DNA from: an uncultured Geobacteraceae bacterium
Lineage (GTDB): Bacteria > Desulfobacterota > Desulfuromonadia > Geobacterales > Pseudopelobacteraceae
DNA length: 52,531 nucleotides
Direction of reading: 5' to 3'
Assembly: GCA_903876875.1 (NCBI GenBank)
Contig: CAIRBT010000026.1
Coordinates: forward strand, 1 to 52,531
The notes under the pieces are model-generated. The model worked only from the letters and a program-made list of their open reading frames with translations, did not search any database and had not been told where the DNA came from. The position numbers were made by a program, and so were the translations under genes. Below are positions 22,824 through 45,926 of this stretch, one piece after another. Every line of letters begins with the position of its first letter. Position 1 is the stretch's first letter.

Positions 22824-22837
22824 CGCCATATGTGGCG
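22824..22837. promoter_or_regulatory. Inverted repeat CGCCA-TATG-TGGCG, possible upstream activator site
   Basis: A 14-bp palindrome in the 327-bp gene-free gap between the nitrite reductase and the stress operon. It contains CCATATGTGG, which recurs at 36658-36667 upstream of another sigma-54-like promoter. Its centre is about 139 bp upstream of the predicted stress-operon start, a distance typical of enhancer sites. Function is inference. The gap also holds a small CCAAT/ATTGG repeat at 22743-22757 and a terminator. Confidence 0.35.
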
Positions 22838-25304: not shown

Positions 25305-25330
25305 GTGAAACCTCCTTGAATCGCTTAGTT

Positions 25331-26104: not shown

Positions 26105-26756
26105 AATAGTCCTTCTGCACGGGAGGCGATTTCATAACCACAATCACCGGTTGGTCTCTGACGCAGGCATTTTCGCAGATGCCGCATCCGACGCATTTAT
26201 CACGATGGATGACCGGTTCCATGATCGAGTGAACACCGGTGCGCTGATTGTGGCGCGGTTCTAAGGTGATTGCTTTGTCGATCAGCGGGCATTGACGGTA
26301 GCAGACTTCACAACGGAGACCACGCAGAGAAAGACAGCTTTCACGATCAACAATAACCGCAGTTCCCATGGTTATTTTTTCAATGTCTTCCAGCTTTTTA
26401 TCCAATGCCCCCGACGGGCACGCCTTGGCACAGGGTATGTCCGGACAGAGATAACACGGTACTTCCCGGGCAACGATGTGTGGTGTGCCAATGCCGATAC
26501 CCGCTTCGCCGCCTGCCATTTTGATGGATTTATATGGACAGGCCTGGGCGCATTTCCCGCATTTGATACAGGATGCCAGAAAACGTCGTTCCTCCACCGC
26601 TCCCGGGGGGCGCAGGTAAAAACCACGGGCATCGGCTCGCCGGAGAAAAAGTGTTGAAATGCTGCCACCGGCAACCGCCAGAGCCAGTGGTATTAACACC
26701 CCGTTTTTTAAAAATCGGCGGCGGGTGATACCGGTATGTGAGGATTTCTGGATCAT
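26094..26756 (-). CDS. napG: NapG-like periplasmic iron-sulfur protein
   Basis: 220 residues with a twin-arginine signal TRRRFLK (residues 11-17) and hydrophobic stretch to about 40. Four cysteine clusters for 4Fe-4S centres are present: CIKCGKCAQACP, CYLCPDIPCAKACP, the central CEVCYRQCP with a preceding Cys, and CVGCGICENAC. Size matches NapG. It relays electrons from NapH toward the diheme cytochrome and NapA. It begins 15 bp after napA. Confidence 0.9.
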   Translation of the reverse strand: MIQKSSHTGITRRRFLKNGVLIPLALAVAGGSISTLFLRRADARGFYLRPPGAVEERRFLASCIKCGKCAQACPYKSIKMAGGEAGIGIGTPHIVAREVPCYLCPDIPCAKACPSGALDKKLEDIEKITMGTAVIVDRESCLSLRGLRCEVCYRQCPLIDKAITLEPRHNQRTGVHSIMEPVIHRDKCVGCGICENACVRDQPVIVVMKSPPVQKDYYEF

Positions 26757-26771
26757 TGAAAACCTTCTGGG

Positions 26772-30939: not shown

Positions 30940-32063
30940 ATGTGGCTTTTTTCTGCTGCATGGTGGTGATCGGTAGCCATGATATCCCCCCATACGGTGA
31001 TGAGAATGGCAAATAACACCGGGCCGAGGATCAGGCCGAGGCTGCCGAGTACATAGACACCACACACGGCACCAAGTACAATGGCAGGAACGCAGATGTT
31101 ACCTTTGGCTTTAATGGCCAACGGACGTATTGCATTGTCGGCCAGTCCGACAAATATGACACACCAGAGTGCCAGGAGTATCCCTTTCAGGTAGAAGCCG
31201 TTAAGTAACAGAAGGAGCGTCAATGGTACCCAGAGGATACCGGTGCCGATAACGGGGATCACTGCCGCCACCGCTGTCAGGGCACCGCAGATAACCGGAG
31301 CCGGTACACCGGCAAAATAATAGCCAATGGCAGCGGTAACCCCCTGTGCAAGACAGGTAAAGAGGGTGCCCACCGTTACTGCGGTGGTTGTGGCACGAAT
31401 TTCAGACGCGTAGTGGCGTGCTCTGTCCCGATTGGTGGCACAACGGTCGATTGCCCTCTCCACGATTCTTTTGCCATCACGATAGACAAAAAAGAGGATG
31501 AACAGTGTCAAGGCACCGGTGAAGATGATCTCGCCGAAATGTATTGCCGTATTGGTTGTCAGGTCAAAGAGATATGCTGAAACGCTGTTGGTCAATTTTG
31601 CCATCAGATTGGCCGGAGTGATGTTAAAACGATTGCTGAGGGTGATAAGGGTACCGGTGAAGGGGAGCTGTTTAATTGTGTCCACCCCGGTTGTTGTAAA
31701 CAAGAGAAAGAGCCGTACCCCTTCGCTGTACCATACGACCGCATTCTCGACGATCAGTACGATCAGGCCGATAATTGGGAGGATAAGGCATACCGTTATT
31801 GCGAGAACCATCAAAGCGGCACACCGGTTCGGGTGCTGGGGGAAGCGGCAGGATAACCGGTCATGGAGGGGGAGGGTAGAGATGCCGATAATAAGTGCCC
31901 AGGCAAGGGGCCTGGCAATTGGTGCCACCAGGAGGGCAAGCAGCCAGAGGGCAACTGCTGTCCCTAAGGCTGCACTACTGCCGAGATAGGTGCTACGGCT
32001 CGGTGTCATTACATCCCCCGGTGTTGCTTGGTGTGCCCTGAATTTTCTCAGATGGTATTTCAT
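30936..32063 (-). CDS. AI-2E family transporter (TqsA/YdiK-like)
   Basis: 375 residues from ATG 32063, overlapping the permease stop in ATGA; the frame runs far upstream inside the permease gene and that part is not coding. About eight membrane helices with the family's paired N-terminal helices, a cytosolic/periplasmic domain (about 115-200) and the C-terminal block VCGVYVLGSLGLILGPVLFA. Family members export small molecules or act in ion homeostasis; the substrate here is unknown. Confidence 0.85.
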   Translation of the reverse strand: MKYHLRKFRAHQATPGDVMTPSRSTYLGSSAALGTAVALWLLALLVAPIARPLAWALIIGISTLPLHDRLSCRFPQHPNRCAALMVLAITVCLILPIIGLIVLIVENAVVWYSEGVRLFLLFTTTGVDTIKQLPFTGTLITLSNRFNITPANLMAKLTNSVSAYLFDLTTNTAIHFGEIIFTGALTLFILFFVYRDGKRIVERAIDRCATNRDRARHYASEIRATTTAVTVGTLFTCLAQGVTAAIGYYFAGVPAPVICGALTAVAAVIPVIGTGILWVPLTLLLLLNGFYLKGILLALWCVIFVGLADNAIRPLAIKAKGNICVPAIVLGAVCGVYVLGSLGLILGPVLFAILITVWGDIMATDHHHAAEKSHI

Positions 32064-33091
32064 GACAATAACCAGCGTTTCTTGATGAGCAGGTAGGAAA
32101 AAGTCAGGGTTATTACGCCAACTGTCGCTAGGTACAGCCAATCCGTGGCGAAGTGGGACAGGGGGTATTTGTTGAAAAGCAGTGCCCTGACCGGTTCCAA
32201 CAAGTGGTATGAGGGGAGATACGGGGCACATGCGGATAATTGGGGCGAATAGTCCGCGAGAGCGCAGGGGAGCAGATGCGGAAGATAGAAGATAACACCT
32301 AAGGTTCGGGCACTTGCTTGATTGCGGCATAATAAACCGAGAAATACACCGTACGAGCAGAAGCAAAAACTTCCCAGCAGGATGAATAGTACATAGTTGC
32401 CCATGTGTTCCGGTCTGTAGTTGCTTAACAGATGAAGTATCACGATGGCAACGGCCGAAAGGAGCATCCCCGACACCACCTTCGCACCTAACCATTCCAT
32501 CTCATGCATTGGCGTTTGCAGGAGGGAAAGCAGCATGTTTTTCTCTTTTTCTTCGGCTACCTGTCCCGGCAGTATGATAAAGCCAACCAGCAGTACCAAC
32601 ATGAGTATCCAGGTTGGCAGCAATTGTATCCCTATGCCACCCTTTTCAACGGATCTCACCTCGGAAACCCAGCTGCTGCCCCCTCCCTCGACCGCATGCT
32701 GGAGAGCCCCCATGGATTCAATAATGGCAAGTGTCTGTACCGCCTCTTTTTTCTGGACAACCAGTATAAGTTTGTCCCTCACTATGTCGGAATGTTTCAG
32801 GAAACCATCTATTTTTTTATCCCGTATCGACCGCATCCCTTCCGCTTCATCCCTGATGGGAAGCAGATGTATGAGCGAACCTGTCGCGCTCAGAGCACGG
32901 GTCATCTCCGGTGAAAAGGCTTCTGTTCTGACAAAGCCCACTGTTGCCCTGGTGAGATTACGCGCTGATTGATCTACCAGTTTTAATGAGATGAACACAA
33001 AAAACGGGATAAAGATGATCAGCAGCACGCTCTTGTTTTTAACAGCGATGGCCAGATCATTGACTATTAACGTGATTATCGGTGGTGTCAT
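32060..33091 (-). CDS. ABC-2 type transporter permease
   Basis: 343 residues with one N-terminal membrane helix (about 22-40), a large extracytoplasmic domain (40-160) and five or six C-terminal helices. The EEKEKNMLLSLLQTP segment is the coupling element of ABC-2 exporters (compare the EKExGTLExL pattern of NatB/YhaP). Partner ATPase is encoded directly upstream with an ATGA overlap. It probably exports a small ion, lipid or peptide; the substrate is unknown. Confidence 0.85.
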   Translation of the reverse strand: MTPPIITLIVNDLAIAVKNKSVLLIIFIPFFVFISLKLVDQSARNLTRATVGFVRTEAFSPEMTRALSATGSLIHLLPIRDEAEGMRSIRDKKIDGFLKHSDIVRDKLILVVQKKEAVQTLAIIESMGALQHAVEGGGSSWVSEVRSVEKGGIGIQLLPTWILMLVLLVGFIILPGQVAEEKEKNMLLSLLQTPMHEMEWLGAKVVSGMLLSAVAIVILHLLSNYRPEHMGNYVLFILLGSFCFCSYGVFLGLLCRNQASARTLGVIFYLPHLLPCALADYSPQLSACAPYLPSYHLLEPVRALLFNKYPLSHFATDWLYLATVGVITLTFSYLLIKKRWLLS

Positions 33092-33771
33092 GGGAGGGAT
33101 ATCGGTTCGGTGGCGGTGGCACGAAGGTAGTCGTCGGTTGGGCCGTCAAATACGAGAAATCCCTTGTGCAGCATGAGAACCCGCGTGGCGAGAGAGCTGA
33201 TTTCATCCGCTCGATGGGACGTGAAGAGGATCGTTTTCCCCGCTGCATGGAAGCCACGGAGCATGTCATGAATTTCGTTGGTTATTTCAAAATCCAGGCC
33301 GGCCGTTGGTTCATCGAAGATAAGAATGGCTGGATCTGCCAGCAGCGTCCGCCCGATACTGACCCGTTGCCGTAAACCTTTTGACAGATTCCGGACGATA
33401 CTCTGTCTGAACGGGAGCAAGTCAAATTCTGTCAGCACTTCTTCGATCCGTGAAGAGGGGGTACCAAAAAGGCGTGCAAACAGCGTGAGATTGTACTGTA
33501 CAGAAAAGGCATCAAAGAGACTGGGCAGCTCGGGAACAAAGCCGATTTTCCTGATGACCTTCTTTCTGTCACTCACCTGGTCGCCATCAATCAGTACTGA
33601 ACCGCTGTCCGGGGGGTGCCAACCGGCGATGGTTTTCAGTAGTGTTGACTTCCCCGCCCCATTATGGCCAATAACGGCAACAAGTTCACCTTTTTTAACG
33701 GTGAAGCTTGTCGGCAAGAGCCCCCTGCTGCTGGTATACATTTTTGTAAGATTATGGATCTCAATATTCAT
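33088..33771 (-). CDS. ABC transporter ATP-binding protein
   Basis: 227 residues. Walker A GHNGAGKST (35-43), signature region LSKGLRQRVSIGRTL (the usual LSGGQ is LSKGL, as in several ABC-2 ATPases), Walker B AILIFDEPTAGLD and a switch His in FTSHRADE. It powers the permease encoded next. It starts 28 bp after the 21-residue membrane peptide, in the same operon. Confidence 0.92.
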   Translation of the reverse strand: MNIEIHNLTKMYTSSRGLLPTSFTVKKGELVAVIGHNGAGKSTLLKTIAGWHPPDSGSVLIDGDQVSDRKKVIRKIGFVPELPSLFDAFSVQYNLTLFARLFGTPSSRIEEVLTEFDLLPFRQSIVRNLSKGLRQRVSIGRTLLADPAILIFDEPTAGLDFEITNEIHDMLRGFHAAGKTILFTSHRADEISSLATRVLMLHKGFLVFDGPTDDYLRATATEPISLP

Positions 33772-33799: not shown

Positions 33800-33865
33800 C
33801 TACGTCAGTTTGAGTATGACAATAACCAGAATAACAATAATCAATATGCCGATAAGAAATCCCAT
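33800..33865 (-). CDS. 21-residue single-helix membrane peptide
   Basis: Too short for ordinary gene finding, but the ATG at 33865 has a near-perfect AAGGAGG ribosome binding site. It encodes an almost purely aliphatic peptide (MGFLIGILIIVILVIVI, then LKLT) that would form one membrane helix with a positive end. It opens the operon of the ABC exporter, AI-2E protein and PLD lipoprotein and is followed 28 bp later by the ATPase gene. It could regulate the transporter, act as a membrane-stress peptide or be a toxin-like peptide; the sequence does not decide. Confidence 0.65.
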   Translation of the reverse strand: MGFLIGILIIVILVIVILKLT

Positions 33866-33984: not shown

Positions 33985-34000
33985 GGCAACTAGTATGCCA
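33985..34000 (-). promoter_or_regulatory. Sigma-54 promoter for the membrane-peptide/ABC operon
   Basis: Minus-strand TGGCAT-ACTAG-TTGCC has the invariant GG and GC at the correct -24/-12 spacing. Predicted start near 33974, giving a leader of about 110 nt before the 21-residue peptide. Confidence 0.6.
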
Positions 34001-34012
34001 GTAAGGATGTGC

Positions 34013-34030
34013 TGTTATGGAACCATAACA
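34013..34030. promoter_or_regulatory. 18-bp perfect palindrome between divergent promoters
   Basis: TGTTATGG-AA-CCATAACA, two 8-bp arms around AA. It lies between the two divergent sigma-54-like promoters, about 47 bp upstream of the leftward start. A CCATAAC half also occurs near 36583 upstream of the alcohol dehydrogenase. Candidate binding site for a dimeric regulator. Confidence 0.55.
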
Positions 34031-34097
34031 ATTAGAAAAGAGAAGGGGTTATGGGAAGATAATGCTCTGGTGAAGGTGGTGCCCTTTCAACAGACAC

Positions 34098-34136
34098 TGT
34101 CAAAGATGACATTACTGTGACATGTGACGGTATGTC
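34098..34136. promoter_or_regulatory. Two inverted repeats, candidate enhancer sites
   Basis: TGTCA-AAGA-TGACA (34098-34111) and GACAT-N8-ATGTC (34119-34136). They lie about 118 and 95 bp upstream of the rightward predicted start and about 130 and 153 bp upstream of the leftward one, so they could serve as shared enhancer sites. The rest of the 385-bp gap holds no gene. Confidence 0.4.
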
Positions 34137-34196
34137 TGCAATGGGTCGTCCCCCTATTTGGGGCGGTTGTCAGGTAGTTGCGTGCCGGGTAATAAG

Positions 34197-34212
34197 TGGC
34201 TCACTAGTTGCA
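34197..34212 (+). promoter_or_regulatory. Sigma-54 promoter of the spore-coat-U gene
   Basis: TGGCTC-ACTAG-TTGCA matches the sigma-54 consensus at nearly every position with exact spacing. Predicted start near 34223, 28 nt before the ATG at 34251. It shares the ACTAGTTGC block with the divergent promoter. Confidence 0.7.
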
Positions 34213-34250
34213 TAAATTCTTCAGGCAATTCATCTAACGAGGAGTCCCGA

Positions 34251-34745
34251 ATGAATAAACAGATGTTAACGATCTTTGCAACCGCAACACTGATGTCCCT
34301 GCCGACGGTTGTCTGCGCAGCCACCGCTATTGGAACACTTAACGCGACCGCCTTTGTCACCGCAAAGTGCATTGTCAGTAGCACTACCAACGTCGTCTTC
34401 GGCTCTATAGATCCGACCACCAACGGTAATTACGATGGTGCTGGTACCATCGTCACCAAATGCTCCAAAGGGACGCTGGAATTTCTCTTTATTGCACCGA
34501 GTGTTGCCGGGCCCCTTGCCATGAAAAGTCCGACAACTCTTGATAGTATTAATTATTCACTCTACAGCGATGCGGGACGTACCTCAACGTTTCCCGGTGT
34601 GCTTGGCGGTGCAAAAACGACTCAGTCAGGAACTGCCGTGACAACCAACGTCTACGGCAGGGTTGTGGTAGGAACGGGCATCAATGATACCATCACAGCG
34701 GCGAGCGATTACACCCAGGCATTGACGGCGACCATTGAGTGGTGA
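34251..34745 (+). CDS. Spore coat U domain (SCPU) pilin-like secreted protein
   Basis: 164 residues from ATG 34251, which has a GAGGAG ribosome binding site; the frame extends to 34158 without one. The signal peptide ends near VVCA. The mature protein begins with the SCPU pattern (ATAFVTAKCIVSSTTNVVFG), a Cys40/Cys71 pair likely to form the usual disulfide, and ends with an alternating-hydrophobic beta strand QALTATIEW. SCPU proteins are subunits of Csu-type chaperone-usher pili. No chaperone or usher gene is in the window, so this subunit is either orphan or served from elsewhere. Confidence 0.85.
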   Translation: MNKQMLTIFATATLMSLPTVVCAATAIGTLNATAFVTAKCIVSSTTNVVFGSIDPTTNGNYDGAGTIVTKCSKGTLEFLFIAPSVAGPLAMKSPTTLDSINYSLYSDAGRTSTFPGVLGGAKTTQSGTAVTTNVYGRVVVGTGINDTITAASDYTQALTATIEW

Positions 34746-34769
34746 CGGGAAGTAGTGGAGGCTGACACC

Positions 34770-35381
34770 ATGTATGACTCATCGTATGTTTGTCGATTTG
34801 TAGCGGAACAACAGCGCAAGCTCACTCTCGAACAGCAAAGACAGTCTGAAAAAAAGATCGGTGAGTTGCTGGTCGAGAGTGACTGTTTGTTCCCGGGCGG
34901 GGTTGATCAAGGATTATGCCTGCAGAATACGCTCTTTTTGGCCGCCTTCGGTACGGTTCTTGTGCTCACTCCTGCGCTCATTGTTGAGGCAGGCACACTC
35001 TCTACCGGTTTCAGAGCGACCGCTTCGGTGCGAAAGGTCTCTCGAATCAGAATCGTGCGACAACAATCCCAGCTCACCATTTCTCAAAATGATATTGCCA
35101 CCGGTTATCTGGATGTTCCGGCTGCCAGCCGATTTGAGGTGAAGAACAGCAGTCAGGATGGCTATCTGCTGGCTTTTGAAGTTTTGGAAGGTCCATTCAA
35201 GCAAATATTTATCAGCGGTTTGAAAAACGAGGTACAGATTGATTTCGACAGGGGGTGGGTTCTGATGCCGTATAGTCGCACCCCCCAACTGCTGGAGTTG
35301 ACCTACCGCTTCATATTTACCGCCGATGCCAGGCCAGGAATCTATCCCTGGCCTGTCCAGATAAATGTGTCTGCCATGTAG
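34770..35381 (+). CDS. Membrane-anchored protein of unknown function
   Basis: 203 residues from ATG 34770 with GGAGG eight bases upstream; a GTG at 34755 is less likely because it overlaps that site. The first 50 residues are charged and Gln-rich, then one hydrophobic segment (LFLAAFGTVLVLTPALIVEA, about residues 55-75) and a C-terminal beta-rich domain ending YRFIFTADARPGIYPWPVQI. The topology suggests a single-pass anchor with the C-terminal domain outside the cytoplasm. If a downstream TTG (34885) were used, the hydrophobic part would act as a signal peptide. It follows the SCPU gene by 24 bp and is probably its functional partner. Confidence 0.7.
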   Translation: MYDSSYVCRFVAEQQRKLTLEQQRQSEKKIGELLVESDCLFPGGVDQGLCLQNTLFLAAFGTVLVLTPALIVEAGTLSTGFRATASVRKVSRIRIVRQQSQLTISQNDIATGYLDVPAASRFEVKNSSQDGYLLAFEVLEGPFKQIFISGLKNEVQIDFDRGWVLMPYSRTPQLLELTYRFIFTADARPGIYPWPVQINVSAM

Positions 35382-35411
35382 CTGAGATCGGGGTTGTGAG
35401 AGAGCGAAGCG

Positions 35412-36470
35412 TCAGCTCATCTCACGTTCCTTCAGGCTGGTCATATCAATGACGAACCGGTAGTGAACGTCGCTTTTTAATATCCGTTCATAGGCTTCAT
35501 TGATCTGTTCTATTGAAATAACCTCCACATCGGCAACGACCCGGTGTTCGGCACAGAAATCAAGCATCTGCTGGGTTTCGCGGATACCACCTATCAGTGA
35601 GCCGGCCAGATTCAAACGCTGCAAGACAAGGGAAGAGGCCGCAAGGAGCATCGGTTCCGGTATGCCGACCAGTACCATGGTGCCATCGCGGCGGAGCAGA
35701 TTCAGGTAATTATTGTAGTCGTGACGGGCTGAAATCGTATTGAGAATAAAATCAAAACGCCGGGCATTGGTCGTGAAGGCATCAGCATCAGCAGAAGCGA
35801 TAAAATCAACGGCACCCAGTGCCAGGGCATCTTCCCGTTTGCTCGCCGAATGGCTGATGACGGTGACTTTGGCACCCATGGCCACGGCGATCTTTACCCC
35901 CATGTGACCAAGTCCACCCAGGCCGACAACCGCAATATTGGAATTGTTCTTGACGCCAAAGCGATGCAACGGCGAATAGACCGTTATACCGGCACATAAC
36001 AACGGTGCCACCCGCTCAAGGGGCAGGCTATCGGGGATGCGCAGGATATAATCTTCATTCACCGTGATACGGGTTGAGTAACCACCATAGGTCGCTGTTT
36101 TGCCATCCCGCTCGAACCCGTTGAAGGTTGTATTCATGCCCGCTTCGCAGTACTGTTCTTCGCCTGCGGCACAGGCTTCACATTGGTGGCATGAATCAAT
36201 GAAGTAGCCAATGCCCACACTATCACCGATTCTCCACTTGATGACATCCTCACCGGTCTTTAATACCCTGCCGACGATTTCATGGCCGGGTACCATGGGA
36301 TAGTGGGAACCGCCCCATTCGTTGCGAACCTGATGAATATCGGAATGGCAGACACCACAGAAGAGGATTTCGATAAGGACTTCCCGTGCCTCCGGATCTC
36401 GCCGCGTAATCGCGTGGGGAGCCAGCGGTGAATGTGCGGAAATTGTTGCATATGCTGCGGTTGTGATCAT
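35412..36470 (-). CDS. Zinc-dependent NAD(P) alcohol dehydrogenase (YahK/CAD type)
   Basis: 352 residues. Catalytic zinc site Cys (CGVCHSDIHQ) and GHEIVGRV, structural zinc cysteines (CHQCEACAAGEEQYC), and the Rossmann motif GLGGLGHMGV (about 180). The HSDIHQ and GYSTRI patterns match cinnamyl-alcohol/aldehyde reductases of the YahK group, which favour NADPH and reduce many aldehydes. It has its own sigma-54-like promoter in the 225-bp gap after the NtrC-type regulator gene. Confidence 0.9.
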   Translation of the reverse strand: MITTAAYATISAHSPLAPHAITRRDPEAREVLIEILFCGVCHSDIHQVRNEWGGSHYPMVPGHEIVGRVLKTGEDVIKWRIGDSVGIGYFIDSCHQCEACAAGEEQYCEAGMNTTFNGFERDGKTATYGGYSTRITVNEDYILRIPDSLPLERVAPLLCAGITVYSPLHRFGVKNNSNIAVVGLGGLGHMGVKIAVAMGAKVTVISHSASKREDALALGAVDFIASADADAFTTNARRFDFILNTISARHDYNNYLNLLRRDGTMVLVGIPEPMLLAASSLVLQRLNLAGSLIGGIRETQQMLDFCAEHRVVADVEVISIEQINEAYERILKSDVHYRFVIDMTSLKEREMS

Positions 36471-36523
36471 CTGAGCTACCTCGCGGAAATTGGTTGGCGT
36501 TCTGTGACGTGTGCAGGGTACTC

Positions 36524-36539
36524 GGCAACTTCTGTGCCA
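36524..36539 (-). promoter_or_regulatory. Sigma-54 promoter of the alcohol dehydrogenase
   Basis: Minus-strand TGGCAC-AGAAG-TTGCC: a perfect -24 element and GC at -12 with exact spacing. Predicted start near 36513, 43 nt before the ATG. It is the best sigma-54 match in the window. Confidence 0.75.
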
Positions 36540-36657
36540 TTACCGCTTGCCGTGACCCAGAGCCATAACCAACGGTTCTTGCGATAGTTTAAGGTGTGAC
36601 GCGGCACTCTGTTAGCGAGCAAACCGTTACCATTTTCCGCCATTAATGACACAACTA

Positions 36658-36667
36658 CCATATGTGG
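36658..36667. promoter_or_regulatory. CCATATGTGG motif, possible activator site
   Basis: The same 10-mer occurs inside the palindrome at 22824-22837. Here its centre is about 150 bp upstream of the predicted alcohol dehydrogenase start, just downstream of the regulator gene. Confidence 0.35.
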
Positions 36668-36695
36668 GGGGATGACCGTCCCGCTGTGCTCACCG

Positions 36696-38183
36696 TTACT
36701 GTCTGGCAATCCCGTATTTACGCATGCGGGCGCGCAGGGTACTGGCATTGATGCCAAGGATACCCGCCGCACCATTTTTGCCCTCAATACGCCAACTGGT
36801 TTTTTTAAGAACCTGCACGATATGATCATGCTCCCGTTCAACGAGCCCCTTGGTCTCCTCTCCAGAAACTTCAACCGTTTTACCCCGAGGCTCAAAATGA
36901 TCCAACACCTGTAACGCAGTGCCAAGAGTGATGATAATGGCCCGTTCAATGATGCTTTCCAATTCCCGTACGTTGCCTGGCCAGTGGTACTCCTGAAGTT
37001 TGGTCATGGTTTCTTTTGAAACCGTATCAATTTTCTTGCCAATTTTTTTGTTAAATTTGGAGACAAAATGCTTGACGAGAAGTGGAATGTCATTGGAGCG
37101 TTGCCGGAGCGGCGGCATGGTAATGGGGAACACATTGAGTCGATAGTAGAGATCCTCACGGAATCGTCCATTTTTCACTTCGTCTGCAAGGTTTCGGTTG
37201 GTAGCGGCTATAATCCTGACATCGGTCTTAATGGTACGGGGGTTGCCAAGCCGTTCAAACTCCCCATCCTGGATCACCCGGAGCAGTTTACACTGTAACT
37301 CCAGGGGCATTTCACCAATTTCGTCAAGGAAGATAGTGCCGCCATCGGCCATTTCAAAGCGGCCGATCTGTCGGGCATCGGAGCCGGTGAAGGCACCCCG
37401 CTCACGGCCAAAGAGTTCACTTTCAATCAAGGTTGCCGGCAGTGTGGTGCAGTTGACCGTGATCAGTGGTCGCCCCTTGCGGGTACTTCTGCTATGGATT
37501 GCCCGGGCCACAACCCCTTTGCCGGTGCCGGTTTCGCCCAGAAGCAGCACCGTCGCGTTCATGGGTGCCACCTGTTCGACCTGGGAGAATACCCGTGACA
37601 GCGCAACGCTCTGGCCGATAATCTCGCCAAAGTTGTATTGCTGTGCAACCTCCTGCTGTAGGTAGATATTCTCGGCCTGCAGCCGATCCTTCAATTGGAG
37701 AATTTCCAGATTCGTTCTGCTGAGCTCTTTTGTGCGTTCGCTGACGGTCTGTTCGAGAAGGGCGTTGTTAACTTCGAGTTTGTTATATAACAAGCGAACT
37801 TCCAACATATTATGGATACGGGTCCTTACTTCAATAAGGTCGAAGGGTTTGGCGATGAAATCCTTTGCCCCCGCCTGTAAGGCGCGAAGTTTGTGACCCG
37901 GTTGAGCTGTCAGGACGAGCACCGGGAGATAACCGCTTATATCAATTTTTTTTAAGCCTTCCAGCACCTGAAAGCCGTCCATGACCGGCATCTGCAGGTC
38001 GAGCAGTATCAGGTCGTAGCTGCTTTTCTGATGCAAGGCACAAACCCCTTCCGGTTGTGTTGTTGCGGTGATGTTGCGGTAGCCCGCTTCACGTAATAGT
38101 TGCTGAAGAAGGGTGATGTTTACCTCCTGGTCATCGACAATCAAGATACGGGCGGCAAGAATTTCAGATTCACTAATCATCAT
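36696..38183 (-). CDS. NtrC-type sigma-54-dependent response regulator
   Basis: 495 residues. Receiver domain 11-125 with phospho-acceptor Asp62, coiled linker 130-180, AAA+ domain with Walker A GETGTGKG (216-223), GAFTGS loop (263-268) and Walker B GGTIFLDE (281-288), and a C-terminal Fis-type helix-turn-helix (AAGILGINASTLRARMRKYG). It should open sigma-54 promoters after phosphorylation. The sigma-54 contact loop reads GAFTGS where GAFTGA is usual. The ATG overlaps the stop of the hybrid kinase (ATGA), making them a cognate pair. Likely targets are the nearby sigma-54-like promoters. Confidence 0.93.
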   Translation of the reverse strand: MMISESEILAARILIVDDQEVNITLLQQLLREAGYRNITATTQPEGVCALHQKSSYDLILLDLQMPVMDGFQVLEGLKKIDISGYLPVLVLTAQPGHKLRALQAGAKDFIAKPFDLIEVRTRIHNMLEVRLLYNKLEVNNALLEQTVSERTKELSRTNLEILQLKDRLQAENIYLQQEVAQQYNFGEIIGQSVALSRVFSQVEQVAPMNATVLLLGETGTGKGVVARAIHSRSTRKGRPLITVNCTTLPATLIESELFGRERGAFTGSDARQIGRFEMADGGTIFLDEIGEMPLELQCKLLRVIQDGEFERLGNPRTIKTDVRIIAATNRNLADEVKNGRFREDLYYRLNVFPITMPPLRQRSNDIPLLVKHFVSKFNKKIGKKIDTVSKETMTKLQEYHWPGNVRELESIIERAIIITLGTALQVLDHFEPRGKTVEVSGEETKGLVEREHDHIVQVLKKTSWRIEGKNGAAGILGINASTLRARMRKYGIARQ

Positions 38184-41167
38184 AACAGTTCCTTTGTGTT
38201 CTTATCCTTTGTGGAGGCGCATGCTGTCTCTAAGGTTGATAAAAACTCTTTGACTTTTATCGGCTTGGTAAGATAACGGAAGAACCCGGCTTTCAGCCCT
38301 TTTTCAATGTCGTTGGGGAGAGCGTTGGCACTGAGGGCCAAGACCGGAATGTGAGCGGTTTTCAGGTCGGTAGCCAGCAGTTCCATGGCCTCAATACCAC
38401 TGATGTCAGGGAGGTTAATATCCATCAGAATGACATCCGGGAGAGCAGTGCGTGCCAGAGCGATGCCACTTCGCCCATCGGTGGCACTCAGCAGGCGGAT
38501 GTCGGGCCGCTGGGCAATGATATCTTCAACCAGCATCAGATTGGCAGGGTTGTCCTCAACGTAGAGTAACGTATAAAACGGTTGATTTCTCTGCTCCGGC
38601 AGGTGCGTTATGGTGGTCGTTTCGGAGCTTACGTTACTCTGTGTTGGGTGCATGGTCAGGGGGAGCTCGATCCAAAAAACGCTTCCCTGACCCACACTGC
38701 TTTCCACACCAATGGTTCCAGCCATTCTTTCCACCAGGCGTTTTGCCACAACGAGGCCGATGCCGGTACCCTGTTCGGTATTGGCCTCTTGCCCGAGCCT
38801 GTTAAAGGGCTGGAACAGTTGGCTCAGCTGCTCCGGTGCCAACCCATAGCCGGTATCCGTGATGCTGATACGTACGGAACCGGAGTTCAGTATGCTTTTG
38901 ACAACTACCGTTCCGCCGATTCTATTGTATTTGATAGCGTTGGAAAGAAGATTGATGAACACCTGCTTTAAGCGCGTCCGGTCAGCCTTGACATAGCAAC
39001 TAGTGGCATAAGGGCTAAACGAAAGCGTGATGCCGCGAGTATTCGCCTGTGGCTCGACCATGGCCTCACATGCAATAAGCGTTTCCATCAGTGGGACCGA
39101 CTCAAGGGTCATCGAGAGTTTGCCCGATTCTATGAGGGAAAGATCAAGTATCTCGTTTATCAGCTCAAGCAAGTACCAACCCGCTTTCAAAATCTGATCA
39201 ATACTTCGCAGCTGAATCTCCGTTGGTGGTGGTGTTGCTGATTCCATAAGTTGGGCAAAGCCAAGGATCGCGCTGAGCGGGGTGCGTAACTCATGACTCA
39301 TGCTGGAAAGGAAATCTGATTTGGCAAGATTTGCTTTTTCCGTAATCCACATTGCCTTTTCCAGTTCAATATTTTTGTCGAGCAGTACCTGTTCGAGCCT
39401 TTGTCGCTCACTTTCAATAAGATTACGGGTGCTGTTGTCGGTGCTGATTAAGAGATAGCCAATGATGACATCCTGGACATCGCGGAGTGCGGTAACTGAA
39501 ACAACCGCCGGAAAACGACTGCCATCCTTACGGATATAGGTGAGTTCATAAATATCCTCTATGCCACGGGAAGCCTTGAACACCAGGGTCTCAAAGCCGG
39601 GAGCTATGGGTGTTTCCAATTCTTTACTCAGCTCGGTGGCGCGGGCAATGACTTCTAGTGGGTCGGAGAGATCGGCCGGTGTTATTTTGTCCATGACCTC
39701 GGCGGCACTGTAGCCGAGCATACGCTCGGCACCCACATTGAAAATCTGGATGACACCCTGTGCGTCCGTTGCAATACTTGAAAAATTGGCACTATTGAAA
39801 ATGGCCTTTTGCAGTGCCCCTGCTTTTTGCAGTGCTGCCTCAGCCTGGGTGCGTGCCGTGATGTCCCGCAGAATGCTGGTGAAGTAGCGTTGGTCGTCCA
39901 GCCACATCTCGCTTATGGTCATCTCCAGCGGAAAGGGGGTGCCAGTACTTCGCCGCCCACTGACCTCCCGGCACTGCCCACCGTTGCTTGTTTCTTCACC
40001 GCCGCAATAATTGCCAACGGAATCGCTGCGTTCATTTTGCTCAAGTTCGGGAATCAGCAGATTGAAGCTCTGCCCCTCAAGCTCTGAACCATTGTAACCA
40101 AACATTCGTTCAGCTGCCGGATTGACCGTTTTAATGCAACCACTGTCGGCGTGGATGGTAATAATACCGTCCGCCACCGTATTGAGGATAGTTGTGACAA
40201 GCACGGCACTGTTACGGAGTGATTGCGCCACCGCATATAACTGCGCTTCGCTTTCACTGAGTCCCTTTACCATCATCTCTGACTCGGTTTGCAGTCGCCC
40301 CAATTCGTCATTTTGAAGTTCCAGTTCGAGCTGATGCTGTTCTAATCCCTGTTGGGAACACCTGAGTTCACTGTTCTGTTCCCCAATCTCTATCTGGGAT
40401 AGTTCCAGCTCCTCTAATAACCGGTTTGTTGTTATCCCTTTATCCAACAGCTCGCCATTGGCTTGTTGCAGTAACGTGTTGGTCTCCTCCTGGAGTTTGA
40501 GCAGCCGTTCGGTTTCCCGGTGACTCTCAATTTTAAACTGCTGTTGTTGGTTCCGGAGGATTAAATAGGCAAAAGAGACCGCCAGTAAGAGGTTGCAGAT
40601 GCTGGCGCAGAGGATGAGAATAAACATTCGCCGTAACTTTGCTTGAAAAAGGGCGTCGCGATCTTTCAAGACATGGTCTTCCACCTGCATGAAACCACGC
40701 ATTTCGGAGTGAATTTCATCCATCAGATGCAGACTCTTGCCATTCTTGATGGCTGCCGTTGCCGTGGCGGTGTCGCTACTTGCCCGAATAGCTATCATAG
40801 TGGACAATTCAGCCATCTTTGCGTCAACGAGTGGTATCAGTCGGTCCAGGTGTTGCCGGGCCGCCTGGCTTGAAATGTGATGGCGTAACGTCGTGAGTTC
40901 TAATGCGACGGTGTCTCGAACGGAGTTGTATGGTTTGAGGAATGCCTGGTTACCGGTAAGCAGATAACCGCGCTGGCCGGTCTCAGCCTCTACCAGCGAG
41001 GACATCAGATCATGTGCCTGGTTGACGAGCCGCGAGGAGTTGCTCCGTTCCCGTGCCGTCGCTTCAATCTGCGTGAAGGAATGGTAGGCGAGTAAAATAA
41101 CCATGCTGAGTGACAGGAGGAGCAACAGTCCTATGGAGGGAATAATGAAGGTATGCTTGATTTTCAT
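38180..41167 (-). CDS. Hybrid sensor histidine kinase (CHASE3-PAS-PAS-HisKA-HATPase-REC)
   Basis: 995 residues. Membrane helices near 8-28 and 180-203 enclose a CHASE3 domain with the VEAETGQRGYLLTG signature. A coiled coil (210-320) leads to two PAS domains (about 325-450 and 455-585), the HisKA box SHELRTP with His625, the ATPase domain (NAIKYN, DTGYGLAP, GTGIGLVVAKRL), and a C-terminal receiver (LLYVEDN, DVILMDINLPD). It probably senses an extracytoplasmic cue through CHASE3 and phosphorylates the overlapping NtrC-type regulator. The 359-bp gap upstream (41168-41526) contains no gene; its AT-rich left part probably holds this gene's promoter. Confidence 0.92.
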   Translation of the reverse strand: MKIKHTFIIPSIGLLLLLSLSMVILLAYHSFTQIEATARERSNSSRLVNQAHDLMSSLVEAETGQRGYLLTGNQAFLKPYNSVRDTVALELTTLRHHISSQAARQHLDRLIPLVDAKMAELSTMIAIRASSDTATATAAIKNGKSLHLMDEIHSEMRGFMQVEDHVLKDRDALFQAKLRRMFILILCASICNLLLAVSFAYLILRNQQQQFKIESHRETERLLKLQEETNTLLQQANGELLDKGITTNRLLEELELSQIEIGEQNSELRCSQQGLEQHQLELELQNDELGRLQTESEMMVKGLSESEAQLYAVAQSLRNSAVLVTTILNTVADGIITIHADSGCIKTVNPAAERMFGYNGSELEGQSFNLLIPELEQNERSDSVGNYCGGEETSNGGQCREVSGRRSTGTPFPLEMTISEMWLDDQRYFTSILRDITARTQAEAALQKAGALQKAIFNSANFSSIATDAQGVIQIFNVGAERMLGYSAAEVMDKITPADLSDPLEVIARATELSKELETPIAPGFETLVFKASRGIEDIYELTYIRKDGSRFPAVVSVTALRDVQDVIIGYLLISTDNSTRNLIESERQRLEQVLLDKNIELEKAMWITEKANLAKSDFLSSMSHELRTPLSAILGFAQLMESATPPPTEIQLRSIDQILKAGWYLLELINEILDLSLIESGKLSMTLESVPLMETLIACEAMVEPQANTRGITLSFSPYATSCYVKADRTRLKQVFINLLSNAIKYNRIGGTVVVKSILNSGSVRISITDTGYGLAPEQLSQLFQPFNRLGQEANTEQGTGIGLVVAKRLVERMAGTIGVESSVGQGSVFWIELPLTMHPTQSNVSSETTTITHLPEQRNQPFYTLLYVEDNPANLMLVEDIIAQRPDIRLLSATDGRSGIALARTALPDVILMDINLPDISGIEAMELLATDLKTAHIPVLALSANALPNDIEKGLKAGFFRYLTKPIKVKEFLSTLETACASTKDKNTKELL

Positions 41168-41310
41168 GGTTTACCTGCCCCGGTACTCTACAAGCATTAA
41201 CTATCAACGATTTATTTAATTATAATTTGACCATATCAGCATTTAATTGATTCACCTAAAGTTATTTTCCCCCTCACCAACGCTGTTCCTTCATATGCTG
41301 AGGTTCTGTA

Positions 41311-41320
41311 ACATATGGCG
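41311..41320. promoter_or_regulatory. ACATATGGCG, related to the CCATATGTGG motif
   Basis: Its reverse complement CGCCATATGT is identical to 22824-22833. It lies about 131 bp upstream of the predicted start of the tandem-repeat lipoprotein gene. Tentative. Confidence 0.25.
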
Positions 41321-41419
41321 GCTTTCCCGTGTGAAATGGTGCTTCCTAAACCCTGTTTTACCTCATAAATCGTAATAATAGGTGGTTGTTGTCATCTGAT
41401 TTCTTGTTTATACCCCTTT

Positions 41420-41435
41420 TGGCGGGCTTTTTGCC
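41420..41435 (+). promoter_or_regulatory. Possible sigma-54 promoter of the tandem-repeat lipoprotein
   Basis: TGGCGG-GCTTT-TTGCC keeps GG at -24 and GC at -12 with correct spacing, though the -24 box is TGGCGG instead of TGGCAC. Predicted start near 41446, about 81 nt before the ATG. Confidence 0.4.
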
Positions 41436-41526: not shown

Positions 41527-44142
41527 ATGAAGAATTTTACAATAAAGAAATGGTATCTGGCATTCGTCTGTATAGTGACCAGTTTGGTTACGCTGACAGG
41601 ATGCAGTGACGGTGTGTTTGGGGGGGGCGTGTGGAACTCACCCCATCCCCCCGTCATCAGCGCGTATTCATTGAGTGGAGTCGTTGGCACCATCAATGAA
41701 TCGGCAAAAACCATCTCGGTCACGGTACCCTTTGCAACGGTTCTGACGAATTTGACGGCAACCTACACGACCACCGCCGTTGCCGTCTCGGTTGCCGGTG
41801 TGAAACAAATCAGCGGTGCAGCACCGACACATGATTTTACCGCACCGATCCTCTACACCGCCACTGCTGCCGACAATTCGACGGCAAAATATCTGGTCAC
41901 CGTTACCGTGGCTTTGCCTATCGACAAGGCCATCACCGCCTATTCCATTGACGGGGTTGTCGGCACCATCAATCCAACGGCAAAAACCATTCTGGTCGCC
42001 ATGCCCTATGGTACCGATCGGACCGGTAACGGCACAAACCCCATGCGGGCGTCATACTCTGCTTCGGCGTCCGATGTCCGTGTTGCGGATGAGCTACAGC
42101 AAAGTCCTGCCGTGGCAGCACGGGATTTTAGCACTCTGGTGGTCTATACCGTAACCGCTGCCGATACTTCGACCGCGAGCTATACCGTCATTGTCACTGT
42201 GGCTTCAGAAGTGGACAAGGCACTGACGGCCTTCTCCATTGATGGCGTGATCGGCACCATCAACCAAACAGCGAGAACTGTTGTGGTGGCGATGCCGTTT
42301 GGCACAGATGTTACCGGCCTGACCAAAGATCCCATGCGGGTAACGTATTCCGCATCAGCAACCGATGTTCAGGTTGCCAATGTGGTGCAGCAGAGCCCTG
42401 CCGTGGCTCCACGGGATTTCAGCGGTCTGGTGGTGTACAAGGTTACCGCCGCAGATAGTTCTACCGCCTCCTACACCGTTATGGTGACGACCGCTCCAGC
42501 CATTGCCAGCAGCATTACCTCCTACTCCATTGACGGCATTGTCGGTACGATCAATCCAAGTGCCAAAACCATCATAGTGGCCATGCCCTCTGATACCAAT
42601 GTCACCGGCCTGGGCAGCAATCCCATGCGGGCGTCATTTACCGCTACCGCTACGGACGTGCGGGTAGCTGACATACTCCAGGAGAGCCCGGCACCGACGG
42701 CACGGAATTTTAGCAACCCGGTTGTCTACACGGTTACTGCTACAGATGGTTCTGCCACCGTGTATACCGTTATCGTAACGGTGGCTTCACCCCTTGACAA
42801 GGCGCTGACGGCATTTTCCATTGATGGTGTTGTCGGCACGATAAATCAGGTCACCAAGACCATACTGGTCGCCATGCCGTACGGTACGGATGTCACCGGT
42901 CTGGGCAGCAATCCCATGAGAGTAATATACTCCGCAACGGCTACCGATGTTCAGGTCGGGGGCGTTTTACAGCAGAGTCCCGCGCTGACGGCACGGGATT
43001 TTAGCGGTCTGGTAGTCTACCAGGTGACCGCTGCCGATGCTTCGACGGTGTTCTATACCGTTATTGTCACGGTGGCATCCCCGGTCGACAAAACTATTAC
43101 CGCATACTCACTTGATGGAGTTGTCGGTACCATAAGTCAGGGTGCCAAGACCATCACGGTCAACATGCCGTTTGGTACGAACATTACCGGCACAGGTACC
43201 AACCCTATGATTGCCACCTACACCGCTTCTTCAACTGATGTCACCGTCAGCGGAACAGCACAGATCAGCGGCACAACGCCGAATAATTTCACCAATCCGG
43301 TTCCGTACAAAGTGACTGCAGCCGACTCCTCGGCGGTAACCTATACGGTTATTGTCACCGTAGCTCTGTACGTACCAACTCCCGGAGCTGCCGGAACCGC
43401 TCCTGATCTGGCATCAGCCGATACCTTTGGCATCATAGCAAACGACGCAATTACCAACTCCGGGGCCACCTTGATGCATCTCTATGGTGACGTGGCCTTG
43501 GCCGGGCCAACCTCAACATCGGCGGCCCTGGTGGCATTCACCCTGGGTGGTTCGCCGACGGTACCGACCTCGCCGAGAGTAACCGGACAGATCATCACGA
43601 CGGATAGGGGTAATTGGGCACTGCTGCCACAGCTTCGCTTTGATCTTCAGTCAACCTATACTCACAACAAACTCGGTTCCGCTCGCGTTGCTCCGGCGTC
43701 AGTACCCACGCCAACCGGCAATGGCGGTACCTTTGCCTCAGGAGTCGTTGACCTTACCGGTATGGTGCTGCGACCCGGTATCTATGCGGTCGGAACGGCC
43801 ACTGACACGTTTGCCCTGAGCAACGATGCCGGTCCACTTGTGCTTGATGCACAGGGAAATGCGGATGCGGTATTTATCTTCCAGGCGGATACCATGACCA
43901 CCACAACCGGGAGCATTGTGCTCCAGGGGGGAGCCAATCCGAAAAATGTTTTCTGGGTCATGACCAACAATGTCACCATTGGTACCAATACCTTCTTTCA
44001 GGGGACAATCGTGGCGGGGCAGACCATCACCATTAACGCCAATACCATTGTTGAAGGGAGAATGTTGGCGGGTGCTGATATTTCGGCACCGGTTGGTACC
44101 GGCAATCTTACGGTCAGTGGCGTTATTACCGTGCCAAAATAG
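41527..44142 (+). CDS. Tandem-repeat surface lipoprotein with C-terminal ice-binding-like (DUF3494) domain
   Basis: 871 residues with a lipobox LTLTGC (Cys26). Residues about 47-615 are six repeats, the first 92 residues and the others 97, each starting like AYSIDGVVGTINPTAKTI, continuing VAMPYGTD..PMRA.YSA and ending VYTVTAADSSTASYTVIVTV, an Ig-like cadherin/DUF5018-type fold. The C-terminal about 240 residues match the DUF3494 ice-binding-like beta-helix: TGMVLRPGIYAVG, NADAVFIFQ, NPKNVFWVMTNNVTIGTN, FFQGTIVAGQTITIN and GRMLAGADISAP. DUF3494 proteins include antifreeze adhesins, but many members are of unknown ligand. An AAGGAGG ribosome binding site precedes the ATG. Confidence 0.85.
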   Translation: MKNFTIKKWYLAFVCIVTSLVTLTGCSDGVFGGGVWNSPHPPVISAYSLSGVVGTINESAKTISVTVPFATVLTNLTATYTTTAVAVSVAGVKQISGAAPTHDFTAPILYTATAADNSTAKYLVTVTVALPIDKAITAYSIDGVVGTINPTAKTILVAMPYGTDRTGNGTNPMRASYSASASDVRVADELQQSPAVAARDFSTLVVYTVTAADTSTASYTVIVTVASEVDKALTAFSIDGVIGTINQTARTVVVAMPFGTDVTGLTKDPMRVTYSASATDVQVANVVQQSPAVAPRDFSGLVVYKVTAADSSTASYTVMVTTAPAIASSITSYSIDGIVGTINPSAKTIIVAMPSDTNVTGLGSNPMRASFTATATDVRVADILQESPAPTARNFSNPVVYTVTATDGSATVYTVIVTVASPLDKALTAFSIDGVVGTINQVTKTILVAMPYGTDVTGLGSNPMRVIYSATATDVQVGGVLQQSPALTARDFSGLVVYQVTAADASTVFYTVIVTVASPVDKTITAYSLDGVVGTISQGAKTITVNMPFGTNITGTGTNPMIATYTASSTDVTVSGTAQISGTTPNNFTNPVPYKVTAADSSAVTYTVIVTVALYVPTPGAAGTAPDLASADTFGIIANDAITNSGATLMHLYGDVALAGPTSTSAALVAFTLGGSPTVPTSPRVTGQIITTDRGNWALLPQLRFDLQSTYTHNKLGSARVAPASVPTPTGNGGTFASGVVDLTGMVLRPGIYAVGTATDTFALSNDAGPLVLDAQGNADAVFIFQADTMTTTTGSIVLQGGANPKNVFWVMTNNVTIGTNTFFQGTIVAGQTITINANTIVEGRMLAGADISAPVGTGNLTVSGVITVPK
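41665..43372 (+). repeat. Six in-frame tandem repeats (291-bp period)
   Basis: Unit starts at 41665, 41941, 42232, 42523, 42814 and 43105: the first spacing is 276 bp, the others exactly 291 bp. Inner units are more alike than the outer two, pointing to expansion by internal duplication. Repeat number may vary between strains. Confidence 0.85.
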
Positions 44143-44267: not shown

Positions 44268-45926
44268 ATGAAAAAAAAATATTCATTAGCTTTAATTATG
44301 AAGAACGTAATAACGGTTCTAGTACTCTGGGTATTGGCACTTCCCATGGCCGTCCAGGCTGAAATCAAGGCAGGAAGTTTTGAAGTCAGCCCCTTTATCG
44401 GTTTTAACCTGTTTGAAAAACGTCAGAATTTGGAAGACGCACCGGTGTATGGCGGGAGGTTCTGTTATAACATTACCGAGCATTTTGGCGTTGAGGCTTC
44501 AGGAGAATTTGTCCAGAGTCATGTCGATGACAAAACTGCGGTGTTTGACAAAGAAGGTAAATTCACCAGTCCGACAGCGGGAGTGAGTGTTACCACCTAT
44601 CACCTAGATCTGCTCTATCATCTGATAGCGGAGGGTAAATTCAATCCGTTTGTGGTCGCCGGATATGGAGCGGCCAGCTATGATCCCAAAATTAACAACA
44701 AGAATATGTCGATTGTTGATTTTGGCATTGGGGCAAAATATTGGTTGTATGACAATCTGGCACTCAGAGCCGATCTGAGGGATAATCTTGTCTACGAGGA
44801 TAACATTAACAACGTACAGGCTACGGTTGGTATCGTGGTCTCCTTTGGCGGCAAAATTAAAAAAAATCGAGCGTTATCTGATGCTTCTCCGGCGGAGAGT
44901 GCGGAGCTTGCAGATAGCACTGTTCCTGAAATTGTTTTTACGTCACCGTCTAATGGTGCTTCAAAAGTGAGTGTGAATCAGAAAGCGTACGTTGCTTTTA
45001 GTAAAGAGATGAACCAGTCCACACTTACCCGCTCAACCTTTACGGTAATGCAGGGGAGTAATCCCATTGCGGGTGAAGTGACCTCCACCGATGCAACGGC
45101 AACGTTCACTCCTGACCGCAATTTTGAACGGGGCAAGCTTTATACCGTTCTGGTTACTGATGGTGCGAAAGATTCATCGGGTACCCCCCTGGCACTCAGT
45201 TATGAGTGGCGTTTTACCACCGGTGACGTCACCGATACCATGGCACCGACGGTCGCGTTTACCACTCCGGCGAATGGTGCCACTGCCGCACCTATCAAGC
45301 AGAAAATAAATGTGGCTTTCAGCGAGGTAATGGATCCAGGCACCCTTAACTCAAAAACATTTATCGTCATGCAAGGGGAACAGAGTATTCCTGGCAAGGT
45401 AACAGCGGCTGCCGCCAATGCCACCTTTACCACGACCGGGGATTTGGCCACCGGTATGCCCTATACCGCCACCATAACCACCGGTGCCAAGGATTTGGCG
45501 GGCAATCCGCTGGCTCAGGATTATGTCTGGAGCTTCACCTCATACGCGCCTCCAAAGGCGTTATCAACGCTGGTTTCATTGCAAAATTCCCATTTTGATT
45601 ATAACAGCAGTGCGATCAGTGAAAACGGCCGGACAATACTGGATAACAATATTGTGGGGCTGAAGAATAATCCTGCCATGAAACTGCTTGTTTCAGGGTA
45701 CACCTCCGCTTCCGGTACACCTGAATATAACCAGGGGCTGAGCGAGAGAAGAGCTGAAGCGGTCAAGGCCTATCTGATTACCGCCGGTGGTATTGATGCC
45801 CAACGGATTACAACAATCGGCTATGGGGAAGCACACCCGGCGCAATTTGAAATCGACCCCAGCGATCGGCTCTCCCCTGCTGCCCTTGCAAATATGAGGG
45901 TTGTTGTTGAGATACTGGAAAAGTAG
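44268..45926 (+). CDS. OmpA-family outer-membrane protein with two Ig-like (Big_5) domains
   Basis: 552 residues with a signal peptide ending AVQA (about residue 31). Residues 32-200 form an eight-stranded barrel-like region (FEVSPFIGFNLF, PFVVAGYGAASYDP, NVQATVGIVVSFG). Two Big_5 domains follow (about 222-318 and 325-425), each with the pattern PSNGAxxVxxxxxxxVAFSKEMNxSTL and ending in YEWRFTT/YVWSFTS. The C-terminal OmpA peptidoglycan-binding domain (440-552) has HFDYNSSAI, NPAMKLLVSGYTS, LSERRAEAVKAYL and GYGEAHP. It should tie the outer membrane to peptidoglycan while exposing or positioning the Ig-like domains. The middle insertion is unusual for OmpA. Confidence 0.88.
   Translation: MKKKYSLALIMKNVITVLVLWVLALPMAVQAEIKAGSFEVSPFIGFNLFEKRQNLEDAPVYGGRFCYNITEHFGVEASGEFVQSHVDDKTAVFDKEGKFTSPTAGVSVTTYHLDLLYHLIAEGKFNPFVVAGYGAASYDPKINNKNMSIVDFGIGAKYWLYDNLALRADLRDNLVYEDNINNVQATVGIVVSFGGKIKKNRALSDASPAESAELADSTVPEIVFTSPSNGASKVSVNQKAYVAFSKEMNQSTLTRSTFTVMQGSNPIAGEVTSTDATATFTPDRNFERGKLYTVLVTDGAKDSSGTPLALSYEWRFTTGDVTDTMAPTVAFTTPANGATAAPIKQKINVAFSEVMDPGTLNSKTFIVMQGEQSIPGKVTAAAANATFTTTGDLATGMPYTATITTGAKDLAGNPLAQDYVWSFTSYAPPKALSTLVSLQNSHFDYNSSAISENGRTILDNNIVGLKNNPAMKLLVSGYTSASGTPEYNQGLSERRAEAVKAYLITAGGIDAQRITTIGYGEAHPAQFEIDPSDRLSPAALANMRVVVEILEK

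Follow-up and report, generated by a model that had tools for sequence, protein, structure and literature searches.

A two-component system among sigma-54 promoters

The stretch analysed here, called the window throughout, is a contig of 52,531 nucleotides (CAIRBT010000026.1, assembly GCA_903876875.1) from an uncultured Geobacteraceae bacterium; it is C26 among the 191 contigs of a 3.93-Mb draft genome, and its 52.5 kb amount to 1.3% of that genome (G, C and L numbers denote genomes, contigs and locus stretches). It carries the genes of an NtrC-family response regulator (36696-38183, minus strand; receiver, sigma-54 AAA+ and HTH_8 domains in Pfam), which is the proposed activator, and of its proposed partner, a CHASE3-PAS hybrid histidine kinase (38180-41167, minus strand; Pfam), the two genes overlapping by 4 nt, and six transcription units that lie behind -24/-12 promoters of the sigma-54 type. 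The GAFTGS loop, the Walker A motif GETGTGK and the acidic residues of the receiver are all present in the regulator, the H-box of the kinase is intact (SHELRTP), and rpoN is found in the genome on contig C157 (PF04552, E 7.9e-64). An initial annotation, made from the letters alone, had placed a sigma-54 activator and a CHASE3 kinase at 36696-41167, which Pfam confirms. With good confidence, the window appears to be part of one sigma-54 regulon with one enhancer code, an upstream activating sequence (UAS), that would be run by this adjacent regulator.

The same annotation described three good -24/-12 sites of identical spacing and two weaker ones, and all five are present with a spacing of 16 nt. 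The good sites precede the membrane-peptide/ABC operon (33985-34000, minus strand, TGGCATACTAGTTGCC), the SCPU pilin gene (34197-34212, plus strand, TGGCTCACTAGTTGCA) and the alcohol dehydrogenase gene (36524-36539, minus strand, TGGCACAGAAGTTGCC), while the weak ones precede the ice-binding lipoprotein gene (41420-41435, plus strand, TGGCGGGCTTTTTGCC, sigma-54 score 9.9) and the YflT/PRC/glucan-synthase-like operon (22703-22718, minus strand, TGGCACAGTAGTTGAT, score 12.5). A sixth promoter, absent from the annotation, is located before an operon for a second CHASE3 hybrid kinase (52231-52246, minus strand). GG at -24 and GC at -12 are found at 33985, 34197, 36524, 41420 and 52231, and the promoter at 22703 has GA at -12. 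Scoring with a sigma-54 matrix, entered from general consensus frequencies, recovers the sites, but the number of motifs in the window exceeds chance at most mildly: seven matches score 12 or more against 4.1 ± 2.3 expected, and there are 45 two-mismatch matches against 32 ± 5.6 expected, a count reached in one of 100 shuffles. As the excess is mild at most, motif number was dropped as main evidence. The pattern TGGCWYNNNNGTTGC occurs 26 times in the 3.93-Mb genome, against 13 for a reversed control pattern, and four of the 26 are in the window, that at 52231 being the fourth. It is by position and context that the -24/-12 sites of the window exceed chance.

The context is as follows. Around the closer homologues of the regulator in relatives, strong sigma-54 sites recur, in many cases right after the regulator gene. 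In the sequences preceding 60 such sites (up to 300 bp each), the words ATCCGTCA/TGACGGAT occur in 17 against 1.0 expected, together with other enriched words. Inspection and alignment of these upstream regions revealed one long conserved block, the UAS, which is quasi-palindromic, about 43 bp long and reads approximately TCCGTCANATATGGCAGTTATGTTAAACATGACGGAT, TGACGG/CCGTCA being among its conserved parts. The first UAS matrix was seeded by the consensus read by eye and had window sites in its training set; the final one, 43 bp long, was built from 40 sites of relatives with the window and G013 excluded, with the small leak that these sites were picked and placed by the first matrix (score >25). 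A half-site, GTTATGG/CCATAAC at 34013-34028, guessed by eye, was dropped; the top enriched words are of the TGACGGAT/ATCCGTCA type of the UAS. The conserved leaders were also considered as RNA, and Rfam at gathering thresholds gave no match in the window, L123 or L138.

Run over both strands of the whole window, the final matrix has its top six matches at five places, one of which is read both ways, and all six are 113-128 bp (edge to -24) from the six promoters. The best UAS of the window (52319-52361, minus strand, matrix score 35.3) has its edge 115 bp upstream of the second CHASE3 kinase promoter, and that of the alcohol dehydrogenase promoter (36624-36666, minus strand, 28.9) is 127 bp upstream. 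The divergent promoters at 33985 and 34197 have one UAS in common (34084-34126, minus strand, 25.1), the edge of which is 126 bp upstream of the former and 113 bp away from the latter; its opposite reading (34101-34143, plus strand) scores 15.4. Weak UASs are found for the YflT/glucan-synthase-like operon (22792-22834, minus strand, 11.9, edge 116 bp upstream) and for the ice-binding lipoprotein promoter (41292-41334, plus strand, 10.3, 128 bp upstream), so that the two weaker sites of the annotation also have a UAS at the right distance. In 60 shuffled windows, the best UAS score has a median of 2.2, a 95th percentile of 9.5 and a maximum of 21.3, and on average 0.1 positions score 8 or more.

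The two weak UASs barely exceed that 95th percentile and both their promoters are weak, which counts against six members. It is conceivable, though rather unlikely, that only 33985, 34197, 36524 and 52231 belong to the regulon and that the promoters at 22703 and 41420 arose by chance or have decayed: the latter have low sigma-54 scores, the one with TTGAT at -12, and the lowest UAS scores, near the best of a shuffled window. Against this, both weak UASs have the right distance and orientation and lie outside the training set, and it is because of this placement, not because of score, that they are supported. Moreover, TTGAT at -12 is found in 16 of 155 pairs of UAS and -24/-12 promoter (hereafter composites), and composites with this variant are kept before the YflT genes in L119 (G013), L216 and L294, while ice-binding genes make up a ten-member cluster of target genes.

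Geometry, recurrence and the link to the regulator

The window has six composites, whereas none was found in 200 first-order shuffles, nor in distant loci amounting to 995,069 bases. A strong gapless UAS in the expected stretch accompanies only the window's four among the 26 strong sigma-54 sites of the genome, and since the other 22 are without one, the UAS is not a general feature of sigma-54 promoters; at C73:65265 a covariance-model match lies about 132 bp upstream and fails the gapless matrix.

The pairs recur in relatives and in other genera. Taking the UAS first, with those near locus ends or scoring below 18 dropped, a sigma-54 site (score at least 11) in the same direction is found in relatives for 66 of 77, 62 of them at 123-128 bp, and one in the opposite direction for 10 of 77, eight of them at 142-145 bp, as expected for common divergent enhancers. 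For other genera of the class, sampled in 20 stretches, the count is 43 of 51, with 41 at 123-128 bp and four in the opposite direction; without two training sites (L333 being the same contig as L042) it is 41 of 49, with 39 at that distance. The regions compared had mostly been picked for UAS matches, the exceptions being G037:C254 and G045:C520, picked for the regulator, and C73, picked also for sigma-54 matches. Among the 155 composites, which include training and window sites and were searched for with the promoter 108-130 bp from the UAS in forward reading and 93-130 bp in reverse reading, the distance from the UAS edge is 122-129 bp in 138 and 113-117 bp in 13, and four are reverse readings; the two spacing classes are about one helical turn apart. 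Across the class, the UAS model, run with stricter filters, has matches at E <= 0.001 in 88 of 244 sampled genomes and in 37 of 79 genera.

A third element is often found between the two in relatives. The consensus of the integration host factor (IHF), WATCARNNNNTTR, occurs exactly in 63 of the 155 composites and in none of 152 control windows, which were taken 400-490 bp upstream and are often intragenic; its first base is 38-40 bp before the -24 element in 57 cases and 29-30 bp in five. In the window, an exact match, AATCAGTCTATTA, is located at 52263-52275 (minus strand), 29 bp before the -24 of 52231, and an IHF-like site with one mismatch at 34168-34180 (plus strand), 29 bp before the -24 of 34197. 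That chance or composition accounts for the -24/-12 matches and their surrounding pattern would agree with a motif number at most mildly above expectation, but it is hardly credible in view of the UAS at a fixed distance, its conservation across genera, the positioning of IHF sites and the shuffle controls.

The UAS also follows the regulator. With 26 candidates scored per genome, homologues of the regulator are found at E <= 1e-100 in 38 of 58 genomes, six of these having only about 55% identity. When the regulator search and genome-wide UAS scans, run with stricter filters, are combined by hand for 57 relatives, at least two UAS matches are present in 28 of the 31 genomes with a close regulator (E <= 1e-150) and in 4 of the 26 without; for at least one match the figures are 29 of 31 and 9 of 26, and 19 of the 31 relatives with the regulator have at least ten. 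Because the regions of relatives had been picked around regulators or UAS matches, a family-first, strand-based test was also done, in which composites were sought up to 1.4 kb upstream of CsbD genes (30 of the 72 matches listed) and YflT genes (18 of 18). Where the genome has the regulator, composites precede 16 of 24 CsbD and 9 of 16 YflT loci; where it lacks one, they precede 1 of 6 and 0 of 2, respectively. Positions in partial loci were assigned manually, and little upstream DNA is available for L306 and L309. The CsbD gene of the window's own genome (C73:41952) has no composite in these 1.4 kb.

Several further observations weigh against a single enhancer code tied to this regulator. A good IHF match is found at only two of the six window promoters, the other four having two or three mismatches. 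Whichever way it is read, the UAS with the highest score in the genome, C133:32385-32427 (L207:9981-10023), lacks a sigma-54 site at the right distance, and no composite was confirmed at C73:60281 or C110:20435. The genomes are phylogenetically related, so the co-occurrences are not independent events and their P values overstate independence. G018 and G051 have a homologue (HTH 61-63% identical) and zero UAS matches. Finally, G004, G012, G017 and G027 have 2-10 UAS matches without a close regulator, their activators being at most about 53% identical among the matches listed, and five more genomes without a close regulator have one match.

The last of these observations also favours an alternative, for which we see a low but real probability, namely that the six units are co-regulated through the UAS by one or more other enhancer-binding proteins and that the regulator beside them is merely nearby. 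Composites are indeed seen in G027, G012 and G004 (L234-L237 and L239), all without the close regulator, and relatives possess activators that lack the receiver and are 65-75% identical in AAA+/HTH, which means that several proteins may use one code. On the other hand, the regulator HTH has no second match in its own genome at E <= 0.01, none of the six genomes with only about 55%-identical activators has a UAS match, and many relatives have composites immediately behind the regulator gene. The -24/-12 sites of the window very probably form one regulon, as the annotation proposed, which is strongly supported by a UAS at near-fixed distance, conserved in relatives and co-occurring with the neighbouring regulator; the adjacent two-component system is likely its activator, and we infer that this particular regulator controls the six units.

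The receiver-less activators are encoded at L134:2683-4392, L041:7416-9143, L137:9434-11026, L131:674-2428 and L123:15632-17350, and in several relatives they are no more than 20 kb away from the two-component regulator. Three of the six examined, those of L134, L041 and L137, have PAS domains above the cut-off.

Target genes in the window and beyond

The gene calls come from a simple script that takes the longest ORF and applies a ribosome-site rule, and the operon extents given here are predictions. Behind the promoter at 33985 lie, all on the minus strand, a gene for a 21-aa membrane peptide, MGFLIGILIIVILVIVILKLT (33800-33865), with similar peptides behind composites in L133, L216, L221 and L332, and genes with Pfam matches for an ABC transporter ATPase (33088-33771), an ABC-2 permease (32060-33091), an AI-2E family membrane protein (30936-32495) and a phospholipase-D-like protein (29530-31065), the start codons of the last two being uncertain. 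The divergent unit encodes an SCPU (spore coat U) pilin (34251-34745, plus strand; Pfam), a similar gene to which stands behind a composite in L232, followed by a gene without a Pfam match (34770-35381, plus strand). The zinc alcohol dehydrogenase (35412-36470, minus strand; Pfam) has the same arrangement in G013 (L119). There the ABC genes come immediately after the dehydrogenase gene, behind its promoter, whereas in the window they have a promoter of their own; target control seems to survive gene rearrangement.

The promoter at 41420 is followed by a gene for a repeat lipoprotein with an Ice_binding domain (41527-44142, plus strand; Pfam), a member of the ten-member target cluster, and by that of an OmpA/Big_5 outer-membrane protein, its probable operon partner (44268-45926, plus strand; Pfam). 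The operon at 22703 encodes a YflT-type stress protein (22082-22654), a PRC-barrel protein (21329-22072; both minus strand, Pfam) and probably ends with a 3054-aa glucan-synthase-like protein (11829-20993, minus strand), the name of which is taken from the annotation; by eye, a similar protein is encoded directly behind a composite in L224. The unit at 52231 consists of the second CHASE3 hybrid kinase (49394-52102), a receiver protein (48982-49362) and a receiver-kinase (47393-48985), all on the minus strand and recognised by Pfam. Two neighbouring features may be added. In G013, a coiled-coil gene between the PRC and glucan-synthase-like genes has its own composite (L119:8319, minus strand; UAS 37.2), and the window has none there; also, a cluster of cytochrome c552, 4Fe-4S and molybdopterin oxidoreductase genes (22982-29078) lies between two of the regulon units, with no composite seen.

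The regulon appears to extend beyond the five sites of the annotation, which stand, to 52231 and to composites elsewhere in the genome. At C73:65583 (plus strand) the composite precedes a gene for a PapD-type chaperone, followed by usher-like and SCPU-pilin-like genes recognised by eye; at C73:74942 (plus strand) it precedes an apparent acetate kinase gene, named through clustering with a Pfam-confirmed one in L243, then apparent CoA-transferase and thiolase genes (by eye); and at C21:1293 (minus strand) a gene for a lipoprotein-like protein without a Pfam match. Clustering of the 150 first genes behind composites, the window included, gives an 18-member family, 11 CsbD, 10 ice-binding and 8 STAS proteins, as well as smaller clusters of 5 DUF3309 proteins, 4 OmpA proteins and 4 tiny peptides, each named from one representative or by eye; YflT, PRC, BON, DJ-1/PfpI and YtxH proteins, also named from single representatives, are further target families in relatives. 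The commonest first target, the 18-member family of about 195 aa (L126:5665-6252, L124, L123, L132 and others), has a representative without a Pfam match, is typically encoded directly downstream of the regulator gene and by eye resembles a winged-helix activator. In L126, Rfam recognises two c-di-GMP-I riboswitches: that at 6564-6640 lies between the composite promoter 6399 (plus strand) and an ice-binding gene, which suggests a second layer of control, and that at 9974-10052 follows a sigma-54-like site (9895) without a UAS.

The annotation had also read the regulon as one of the envelope. Envelope and surface functions are indeed among the targets, but the label is too narrow, as stress genes (CsbD, YflT, DUF3309, BON, DJ-1/PfpI, YtxH) are included. 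Because the targets in relatives include CsbD, YflT, PRC, BON, DUF3309 and ice-binding proteins, stress and envelope fits better than envelope, and from gene content a role in general stress is plausible.

Proposed mechanism and relation to known systems

The operon arrangement and the intact residues suggest that the CHASE3 hybrid kinase would sense a signal and phosphorylate the adjacent NtrC-type regulator. The regulator would bind the quasi-palindromic UAS, and IHF or a similar protein may bend the DNA between UAS and promoter. AAA+ domains of the NtrC family open sigma-54 polymerase at -24/-12, and that of this regulator would do so here. The units switched on would be those of YflT, PRC and the glucan-synthase-like protein, of the membrane peptide, ABC transporter and phospholipid enzyme, of the SCPU pilin, of the alcohol dehydrogenase and of the ice-binding lipoprotein with OmpA, the sixth being the second CHASE3 kinase system, which would act as a relay further down. 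In the rest of the genome, at least the chaperone/SCPU operon, the acetate-kinase operon and the lipoprotein-like gene would respond, and the output, judged from gene content, would be a programme of general and envelope stress.

Where sigma-B, RpoS or EcfG governs the general stress response, the factor belongs to the sigma-70 family, and the regulons overlap with this one in content (CsbD, YflT, PRC, BON, DJ-1/PfpI, YtxH); unlike in those systems, the promoters here are of the sigma-54 type with an enhancer. We tentatively suggest, as an idea that may well prove wrong, that in the Desulfuromonadia sigma-54 and a 43-bp enhancer code take the place of a dedicated stress sigma factor in running the general stress response, that several activators with different sensors (CHASE3 two-component, PAS) converge on this code, and that, with a spacing that changes only by about one helical turn, the geometry of looping is preserved. 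The UAS offers a readable cis-code for a large and apparently undescribed regulon in the class of Geobacter, which is of interest for metal reduction and bioelectricity. It also ties one type of regulator to genes of unclear role, such as those of CsbD, DUF3309, the 21-aa membrane peptides, SCPU pili and ice-binding proteins, and turns the way in which these bacteria organise general stress responses into a directly testable question.

In the elements and their order (UAS, often an IHF site, -24/-12), the composites are the same as the promoters of other sigma-54/NtrC-family systems, and so they are in having two spacing classes about one helical turn apart. In the open-licence PubMed Central literature, mostly among top-ranked results, related sigma-54 work was found and no prior account of this enhancer or regulon, nor did the UAS sequence and regulon content match any sigma-54 system described in the available texts. 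Sigma-54 has been linked to the bacterial exterior broadly across phyla (PMC3162934); the envelope and surface theme is the same as here, and the abstract of that work defines neither this enhancer nor this regulon. As far as the accessible text reports, overexpression of RpoN in Geobacter sulfurreducens induced stress genes, and some of the responding stress-response genes are without an RpoN element (PMC2725144). The main text of a comparative sigma-54 study of 2025 contains neither 'CsbD' nor 'general stress' (PMC12316311). The most similar arrangement appears to be DVU3303-DVU3305 of Desulfovibrio vulgaris, a three-component sigma-54 system, the comparison being one of descriptions. According to the available parts of its reports, that system differs in that it has, besides two principal target operons, a site at kdp, and that its partner is a lon-type receiver (PMC3333781, PMC4641369); here, 19 of the 31 relatives with the regulator have at least ten UAS matches, the kinase is of the CHASE3 type and the targets are CsbD, YflT, DUF3309, BON, SCPU and ice-binding proteins. 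Pfam shows no such partner domain in the adjacent kinase or regulator, the genome not having been searched for one. In other respects the two are alike: DVU3305 is likewise a sigma-54-dependent response regulator with sites before its own operon and before stress-induced genes, its targets include UspA-type and membrane proteins, and its binding site is conserved in related species, as is the UAS here (PMC3333781, PMC4641369).

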